Positions 52,927 to 64,000 of a stretch of 64,000 nt of DNA are shown one piece after another. Under the pieces are notes generated by a model. It worked only from the letters and a program-made list of their open reading frames with translations. It made no database searches and was not told where the DNA came from. A program made the position numbers and the translations under genes. The stretch lies in the NCBI GenBank assembly GCA_030745755.1, contig JASLOA010000013.1, positions 16,688-80,687 on the forward strand, given 5' to 3'. Each line of letters begins with the position of its first letter. Position 1 is the first letter of the stretch. Source of the stretch: Kiritimatiellia bacterium. Its GTDB lineage: Bacteria; Verrucomicrobiota; Kiritimatiellia; UBA8416; JABMPJ01.

Positions 52927-53096
52927 AACCCAAGCGGAGAGAAGGGGAGGCCTTTCGCAGGCCTATTATCGCGCAGCGATACTCCAGCCAAGAAATGCCT
53001 CTCCTTTATCTAACCCAAGCGGAGAGAAGGGGAGGCCTTTCGCAGGCCTATTATCGCGCAGCGATACTCCAGCCAAGAAAGGCCTCCCCTTCTCGG
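52927..53096. repeat. 85-bp tandem duplication of a nested inverted repeat
   Basis: units 52927-53011 and 53012-53096; second unit has 17-bp perfect arms GAGAAGGGGAGGCCTTT / AAAGGCCTCCCCTTCTC and inner TATCGC-GCA-GCGATA. Confidence 0.9.
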
Positions 53097-62434: not shown

Positions 62435-62687
62435 CGAATCACGGGTGTAACAAGTATGCTTAGATAGGGTTGCGACGTAGGATGCTGTCGTAGCGTGCGC
62501 CCCGAGCTTGCATTTTTTGAGGCAGAGTGCTGATGAGGCTTAGAATGGGGGTGCCGCTTCCTCGTGGTCTGCGCAGAGCGTATTATTTCGCACAAGCAAA
62601 ATTGTCCGGTCTTCGATGGCGGATGGCGTACAGTGCGTAATAGGCGCCGCGGAGTTCAGGCATGCTCAAAGGAAACGGACGGATTCA

Positions 62688-63797
62688 ATGGACAAGATTA
62701 AGATCACGAGTGAGGAACTTTCGAAAGTGTCCGTATCGCCCCCGGTTCCAGAACCATCAGTATCGCAACAGGAACAGATTAAGACGCGACTGATTCCTGT
62801 CTGGCTCAGAATAGTCTCGGCCCTACTCGTGATCTTCCCGCCACTCCTTTACATCATCACAGTGATTGTTCTCCCATCAATACGCAAGCGCCCCATGCCG
62901 ATCAAGCACGCGTGGGCCATCCACCTCTGCAGCCTCCTTGTCGCCAGTGGTCTTTTGTGGCTTGTTTTCGGCATGTTCATTGCCCTCAGCGCCCCGCGCC
63001 CCGCGGGGCCCGAACAATCAGTAGCGCTGACCATTTCCAGCTTCCCCAGCTTACCGTCCGCTGCACAGCTCACTGCTAGGGACATCGCCCAGGAGCTACG
63101 GCCTCTCGTTCTCGTCGTTCACTCTCAGCCTTCTCGCCTACCATTCTTCAGAAACCGTTTCTTTCCGACGAGAACGGGGGCGGCCGCGGTCATCCACGCG
63201 GATGAAAATGGGTGTCTCGCTGTCACAAGTCGGCATGTTGTGCAACAAGGCATCAAACAAGCCCGTCTTGGTCAGGCAATCGTCGTTGCCGATGAGGATG
63301 GCACATGGGTTTCCGGCCGCCTCGTCGGCCGCCACCGCGATCTCGACTTGGCTTTGATTTCGTTCAACGGTGCCGCATCCACCAACGTATACACACAGCC
63401 AATTCGTAGGTTCGCATCCATTGAGCTTGGCGATAACGTATTCGCCATCGGTCATCCACAGGGGCTGGAGTTCTCGATCTCCACGGGCATCATCTCACAG
63501 AAACGCGGCGACGATTTACTACAAGTGTCAGCGCCCGTTAGTCCCGGCAGCAGCGGCGGCCCGGTCTACGATCAGCATGGAGCTCTGCTGGGAATCGTCG
63601 AAAGCGTGATAGACAAGGAAACGAGCCCTAACGCGGAGAATCTCAATTTTGCAGTTCGTGCAGACGCGCTGCTTGACAGTGCAGCTTGGGCTCTTGATGC
63701 AGCCGGCGAGAAGGTCATGAAATCGCTAGCGCAGGCTTCCCTCGACAGTTCAAATGTTTCAGAAACGCCTACTCAGCCAGATCCCGTAAAGGAATAG
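62688..63797 (+). CDS. membrane-anchored trypsin-like serine protease
   Basis: two N-terminal TM segments; catalytic TSRHVV (H), DLDLAL (D), SPGSSGGPV (S). Confidence 0.85.
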   Translation: MDKIKITSEELSKVSVSPPVPEPSVSQQEQIKTRLIPVWLRIVSALLVIFPPLLYIITVIVLPSIRKRPMPIKHAWAIHLCSLLVASGLLWLVFGMFIALSAPRPAGPEQSVALTISSFPSLPSAAQLTARDIAQELRPLVLVVHSQPSRLPFFRNRFFPTRTGAAAVIHADENGCLAVTSRHVVQQGIKQARLGQAIVVADEDGTWVSGRLVGRHRDLDLALISFNGAASTNVYTQPIRRFASIELGDNVFAIGHPQGLEFSISTGIISQKRGDDLLQVSAPVSPGSSGGPVYDQHGALLGIVESVIDKETSPNAENLNFAVRADALLDSAAWALDAAGEKVMKSLAQASLDSSNVSETPTQPDPVKE

Positions 63798-63820
63798 CAC
63801 CAAAGAAAGGACAACAGACC

Positions 63821-64000
63821 ATGGCAAACATCAATGTGACAGTCTTCGACTCCACGGAAAATAAGAGAGTCCCGGTTGAGCTCCCAGATGACGCACCCGT
63901 CAACAAACTGCTTGCTGTTCTTATAGATAAGCTCAGCCTTCCAAAGGCTGGCCCAGACGGAGCCCCGCTAAGCTACAAGTTCCATCACAAGAATTCGGGC
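63821..64000 (+). CDS. ubiquitin-like (EsaB/YukD-like) protein, truncated by window edge
   Basis: manual translation MANINVTVFDSTENKRVPVELPDDAPVNKLLAVLIDKLSLPKAGPDGAPLSYKFHHKNSG; absent from the ORF track because it is open-ended. Confidence 0.65.
   Translation, partial: MANINVTVFDSTENKRVPVELPDDAPVNKLLAVLIDKLSLPKAGPDGAPLSYKFHHKNSG

Follow-up and report, generated by a model that had tools for sequence, protein, structure and literature searches.

Described ubiquitin-like conjugation systems

Bacterial operons that unite a ubiquitin-like protein (Ubl) with E1, E2, RING and JAB components were reportedly predicted by Burroughs, Iyer and Aravind in 2011 around the Prok-RING_1 domain (PF14446). 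These resemble the operon considered here in holding a YukD-like Ubl, an E1, an E2, a membrane RING protein and a JAB peptidase together, and RING-containing bacterial Ubl operons are, as such, an already predicted kind. Our search of the literature found no biochemistry or experimental study of this YukD-RING operon type.

The ubiquitin operon of Candidatus Caldiarchaeum subterraneum is comparable in having a single Ubl with a removable tail, an E1, an E2, a RING protein and a JAMM peptidase; the nine-residue tail of its pro-ubiquitin is cleaved by its JAMM enzyme and the product is used in an E1/E2/RING cascade (PMC5654768). That system is archaeal, however, its ubiquitin has a Gly-Gly tail, and the described cascade is without protease and FHA parts. 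The BilABCD, Bub and type II CBASS systems also place E1, E2 and JAB around a Ubl, and the E1 described below matches the PADLOC E1-E2 and BilD models. BilA has two Ubl domains (PMC11354881), whereas the present operon encodes one Ubl, a RING protein, an FHA protein and a DegS-like protease, and has little defence context. FtsH ternary conflict systems share separate JAB, E1 and RING genes and the presence of peptidases, but their tri-ligase Ubl module contains a fusion of Ubl, E2 and EAD1 (PMC7159879), while here the Ubl is free and the protease is a membrane DegS-like enzyme. Finally, YukD, EsaB and EccD of type VII secretion have the same fold and Pfam family as the Ubl studied here, which differs in its terminal PEITAG sequence and in having conjugation enzymes in place of secretion genes.

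A protease and a ubiquitin-like gene at a contig end

The window, i.e. the whole 64,000-nucleotide stretch of a Kiritimatiellia contig that was analysed, ends with a gene for a membrane HtrA/DegS-type serine protease of 369 amino acids (62688-63797, forward strand), followed on the same strand by a gene for a YukD-family Ubl from 63821. The gap between the protease stop codon and the Ubl ATG is 23 nt, and an AAAGGA-like ribosome site lies ahead of the ATG. The Ubl frame is open for 60 of about 89 codons (63821-64000), running to the window end as the original prediction had described. The contig is 80,687 bases long, of which the window covers 16688-80687, and its last base is the last base of the window, so the Ubl is truncated after 60 codons and the partner genes of this genome are out of view; among Ubl, E1, E2, RING and JAB, only the Ubl is visible here, the contig end falling inside it. 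The other contigs of the bin, which is 92% complete, hold no E1 of the operon type (the best match, at 33%, is MoeB/ThiF-like) and no Prok-RING gene. Given that no downstream gene is in view, the operon could be broken in this genome. Elsewhere in the window, two tandem 80-nt direct repeats, 98% identical, occupy 52927-53006 and 53012-53091 just upstream of an endonuclease IV-like gene, and are possibly a repeated intergenic element.

Complete operons in relatives

We hold with high confidence that the two window genes are the first two of a membrane-associated Ubl conjugation operon in the order protease-Ubl-E1-JAB-FHA-RING-E2, the rest of which lies beyond the contig end. The original prediction had raised the possibility that a bacterial Ubl system starts here and had proposed looking downstream for E1, E2 and JAB genes. 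That search, carried out in relatives, bore the idea out: G073/L020, from the same class (Kiritimatiellae), has the same first two genes and continues as an intact operon with E1, JAB, FHA, RING and E2, and the same gene order recurs in many loci of several phyla. The Prok-RING_1-type combination of Ubl, E1, E2, RING and JAB is likewise present in this locus and in many others. In G073 each part has its Pfam hit, including Trypsin_2 for the protease and JAB for the peptidase; the Ubl is complete at 89 aa, the E1 scores 200 bits against ThiF, the JAB/JAMM peptidase carries a transmembrane segment (TM), the membrane RING protein combines a zinc ribbon, Prok-RING_1 (PF14446, 59.8 bits against a cut-off of 29.1) and RDD, and the E2 has a UQ_con match and zinc ribbons. 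The FHA protein of the operon gives a modest FHA match (24.7 bits, cut-off 20.7) and has six TM, counting one long hydrophobic stretch as a single TM, with alternating loop charges that put both termini inside.

The catalytic residues of E1, E2, JAB and RING are kept across the loci. Cys196 of the E1 is present in 74 of 74 sequences and its nucleotide-site residues are also kept; His94-Pro95-Asn96 and Cys103 of the E2 are invariant; in JAB, Glu64 is found in 73 of 74 and His124, His126, Ser134 and Asp137 in all 74; and each of the eight RING ligands is retained in at least 61 of 63. These conserved active sites suggest that the operon likely acts as a Ubl conjugation system.

Some loci depart from this arrangement. 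No protease leads the Ubl-E1-JAB genes of G124 (Kiritimatiellae, L067) and G236 (Lentisphaeria). Judged by its kin in these genomes and G073, the window genome is a member of the class Kiritimatiellae. A reduced set of PEITAG Ubl, E1 and membrane RING is seen in L088 (9983-13272), L089, L090, L093 and L097-L099, from Ignavibacteria/Bacteroidetes, where the operon profiles recognised neither JAB nor E2; their E2 is either highly divergent or missing altogether. Two Acidobacteriota loci, L025 (14005-15115) and L030 (14145-16341), have two to three extra membrane proteins between RING and E2, which by eye resemble the GYF_2 and DUF2752 types. In five Armatimonadota-type loci (L085, L087, L091, L094 and L096) the Ubl is preceded by an HtrA protein with a signal peptide and there are two JAB genes, behind which the E2 is placed in four cases; in L085 the E2 comes ahead of the protease.

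The ubiquitin-like protein

The 60-codon fragment matches PF08817 (YukD) at 27.4 bits, just above the cut-off of 27, and for a complete homologue the score against this family is 54.2 bits; a profile built from 42 Ubl sequences finds the window fragment at E 2.1e-30, and it shares 77% identity with the complete Ubl of L007. The AlphaFold model of a complete homologue is a beta-grasp with a pLDDT of 90, and its fold matches include ubiquitin, SUMO, Caldiarchaeum ubiquitin, a bacterial Ubl-deubiquitinase complex (8tyx) and EccD5; a sequence profile reaches ubiquitin in the PDB at E 2.6e-11. The proposal of a YukD-type beta-grasp protein, first made from the letters of the truncated frame, is upheld by the Pfam match, the Ubl profile and the homologue's model with its fold matches. 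A Gly-Gly tail, which was to be looked for, did not appear in the relatives, whose tail has a single glycine: the C-terminal PEITAG is present in 81 of 82 sequences, with the glycine as last residue in 49 and followed by a variable tail of 1-23 aa in 32. An invariant glycine with a variable tail is the pattern of a processed modifier, as in pro-ubiquitins; L048 and L024 are examples of naturally tailed forms.

The family name YukD also invites a reading in which the Ubl, YukD/EccD-like, belongs to the structure of a type VII-like secretion apparatus and is left unconjugated, the E1-like protein doing no more than adenylating it or else working in sulfur transfer. The fold matches do include EccD5, as noted, and the YukD of Bacillus subtilis is reported to be unconjugated (PMC1779556). 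We regard this as very improbable, since the operon has an E2 with HPN...C, a RING protein and a JAMM peptidase whose active residues are conserved, together with the invariant terminal glycine and its variable tails. Type VII secretion was set aside on its partner genes too, as reading by eye of the genes at L007-L009 and the other annotated neighbourhoods revealed no WXG100 and no FtsK/EssC gene.

The leading protease

The protease reading frame opens at 62616, and the ATG at 62688 (MDKIKITSEEL...) is the start that agrees with the relatives, as originally assigned. Pfam Trypsin_2 matches at E 1.6e-24. The best solved relative is DegS (E 9.4e-22), with other HtrA proteases also among the best, and DegS is again the best fold match (E 9.7e-15). 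The label of a trypsin-like protease stood as far as the Trypsin_2 domain goes, and is corrected to a DegS/HtrA-type peptidase by the structural relatives and fold matches. The expected H-D-S triad is intact in the window as His183 (63234-63236), Asp220 (63345-63347) and Ser289 in GSSGGP (63552-63554), all on the forward strand, and is kept in 43 of 44 relatives. The likeness to DegS/HtrA extends over the protease domain and the membrane anchor; the window protein differs in an extra hydrophobic segment, in an N-terminal motif and in that no PDZ domain was found by Pfam, Trypsin_2 ending at residue 327 of the 393-aa frame, with 66 residues remaining.

A tail of about 40 residues precedes two hydrophobic segments with a basic loop between them (62799-62990, forward strand), which correspond to the two N-terminal TM helices of the original prediction. 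The AlphaFold model has helices at 38-49, 51-64 and 70-101 over this region, and an invariant proline, P52, breaks the helix in the first segment. Over 35 sequences, K+R averages 1.9 for the N flank, 3.7 for the inter-segment loop and 0.7 for the C flank; the basic loop and the nearly uncharged C flank suggest that the loop is inside and the peptidase outside. From these charge rules we favour a topology in which the tail is cytoplasmic, the first segment would be re-entrant, the second would span the membrane and the peptidase would be periplasmic. Relatives of the protease with one TM (L065 and L079), which carry the same N-terminal motif, and Armatimonadota-type relatives with signal peptides (L085-L096) are compatible with an exported peptidase.

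The prediction of two hydrophobic segments could also be read as two spanning helices with both N and C termini inside, so that the protease would serve the Ubl pathway from the cytoplasm, as its degrading or maturation enzyme, and its N-terminal motif recurs at the cytoplasmic N-terminus of the FHA protein. We consider this arrangement unlikely, while giving it some weight: the charge distribution around the segments places the peptidase outside, and the one-TM and signal-peptide relatives are of the exported kind.

Distribution and genomic context

A PF08817 scan of 289 genomes of the phylum found a match in four, the window's own among them; the Ubl occurs in three of the 193 genomes of class Kiritimatiellae and is absent from all four other genomes of the window genus, so its distribution is patchy. 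When 84,980 species genomes were scanned, 112 relatives were confirmed; 80 of them were kept, and their gene orders were read with profiles built from L007 proteins. These relatives come from Acidobacteriota, Verrucomicrobiota, Planctomycetota, Ignavibacteria, Armatimonadota, KSB1 and others, and the carriers include Acidobacteriaceae strain ZG23-2 (L057) and Edaphobacter aggregans DSM 19364 (L058), the latter with a culture-collection strain number. Spread of the operon by viruses or plasmids was rejected, as the viral contigs and plasmids searched held no relative.

The protease-led operons form one clade of 41 rows in the E1 tree (100/100 support), which comprises Acidobacteriota, most Verrucomicrobiota and single rows titled Planctomycetota, KSB1 and Deltaproteobacteria. 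Of the loci of this clade and two more that the tree does not contain, 39 are informative, having at least 900 nt upstream; in 37 of these the protease lies directly before the Ubl, within 600 nt and usually at 1-40 nt. A leading membrane trypsin, which the original prediction did not recognise as standard, is therefore the rule in this E1 clade. One exception is L069 (8970-9947, Opitutia): the N-terminal motif and two hydrophobic segments are retained in the gene ahead of its Ubl, with a proline-rich tail where the protease domain would be. HtrA-like genes are common in these genomes, and an unrelated one might by chance have come to lie beside the Ubl; the adjacency across several phyla, which we take as refuting this, and the 43% identity of the window protease to the equivalent gene in L022 leave that explanation a negligible probability.

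The patchy distribution would also suit an anti-phage defence operon of the Bil, Bub or CBASS type with the protease as effector. The E1 and JAB match the PADLOC E1-E2, BilD and JAB models weakly to moderately, and an HsdR (type I restriction) gene lies about 1.6 kb upstream of the L007 operon. Against this, a comparison of 60 flanking proteins with PADLOC and Pfam yielded little for a defence island: few matched PADLOC families, with one member per listed family, the Pfam matches were mostly metabolic, and beyond the generic E1 and JAB matches no named defence component was found in flanks that are mostly non-defence. The absence of relatives from the viral contigs and plasmids searched and the regulatory-protease type of the DegS-like domain weigh in the same direction. 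A defence role is possible, if on the whole rather improbable.

A shared N-terminal motif

The protease and the FHA protein of the complete operons are otherwise unrelated, yet have a common motif near the N-terminus, which in the window protease is IKITSEEL (62697-62720, forward strand). The pattern [IVL]x[IV][ST]xx[DE][LIVM] is found near the N-terminus of 43 of 50 FHA and 30 of 46 protease ORFs, as compared with 10 of 75 E1, 6 of 60 RING, 0 of 64 JAB and 5 of 560 control ORFs, three of the last five being operon genes on inspection; shuffled N-termini gave a mean below 0.3 and a maximum of 2. Since the pattern was picked after some sequences had been viewed and the relatives are non-independent, odds ratios from these counts overstate certainty, while the size of the contrast is unaffected. 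Its forms include MDKIKITSEEL in the window protease, KIVIT..EV in most proteases and KIRITLEDL in FHA proteins; in the FHA protein, whose termini are inside, it is cytoplasmic. Further single-pass membrane proteins encoded in the operons (L070, 8570-10132; L067, 12555-13196) have it too, or something very close to it, and the L070 protein possibly has two copies, VIRISEEYI and KITVNVWEL.

In the SUMO-interaction motif (SIM), acidic residues usually lie next to a core of the form hxhh or hhxh (PMC8616421). The motif described here, hydrophobic-x-hydrophobic and then acidic, resembles it loosely, the fourth position being Ser/Thr, and we read it as a docking signal, perhaps a SIM-like one. Binding by the FHA domain (pTxxD) is a second reading, which we rank below docking, as some half of the proteases have Ser instead of Thr at that position and pThr is the residue that FHA domains favour; as the sole meaning of the motif it was rejected on account of the serine. 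A helix-capping box alone was also discarded, since it fails to account for the N-terminal placement in unrelated proteins of one operon. Tentatively, and with no great expectation of being right, we suggest Ubl-controlled proteolysis across the membrane: the motif, as a counterpart of the SIM, would dock the protease, the FHA protein and other operon proteins on the Ubl or on a Ubl-loaded enzyme, so that cytoplasmic conjugation would gate an exported protease.

The constant leading protease and the motif common to protease and FHA protein look new; the 2011 predictions may already show the leading protease or the FHA protein, and to our knowledge the common motif does not figure in them.

A proposed pathway and its significance

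Taking these components together, the JAB peptidase would trim the Ubl where needed to leave the ...PEITAG end, at whose terminal glycine the ThiF-type E1 would activate it; the Ubl would then be handed to the E1 cysteine and on to the E2 cysteine (HPN...C). The membrane RING protein may help to put it onto targets and JAB may undo the attachment, with the six-TM FHA protein as a putative membrane scaffold that may recruit phosphorylated partners. For the DegS-like protease a periplasmic orientation is the most likely, with the N-terminal tail probably serving to dock it to the machinery in the cytoplasm, perhaps to the Ubl. As a DegS-like enzyme here stands beside RING and JAB proteins of the membrane and an FHA scaffold, the likeliest role of the operon would be regulated turnover or quality control of envelope proteins.

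Outside the archaea, nothing in prokaryotes comes closer to the eukaryotic ubiquitin system than bacterial pathways that combine a RING E3, an E2, an E1, a Ubl and a deubiquitinase. The common motif opens a direct and cheap binding experiment, and the strain-numbered carrier E. aggregans DSM 19364 makes the question testable. In a membrane form whose DegS-like protease is constant, protein tagging would be tied to bacterial envelope proteolysis.
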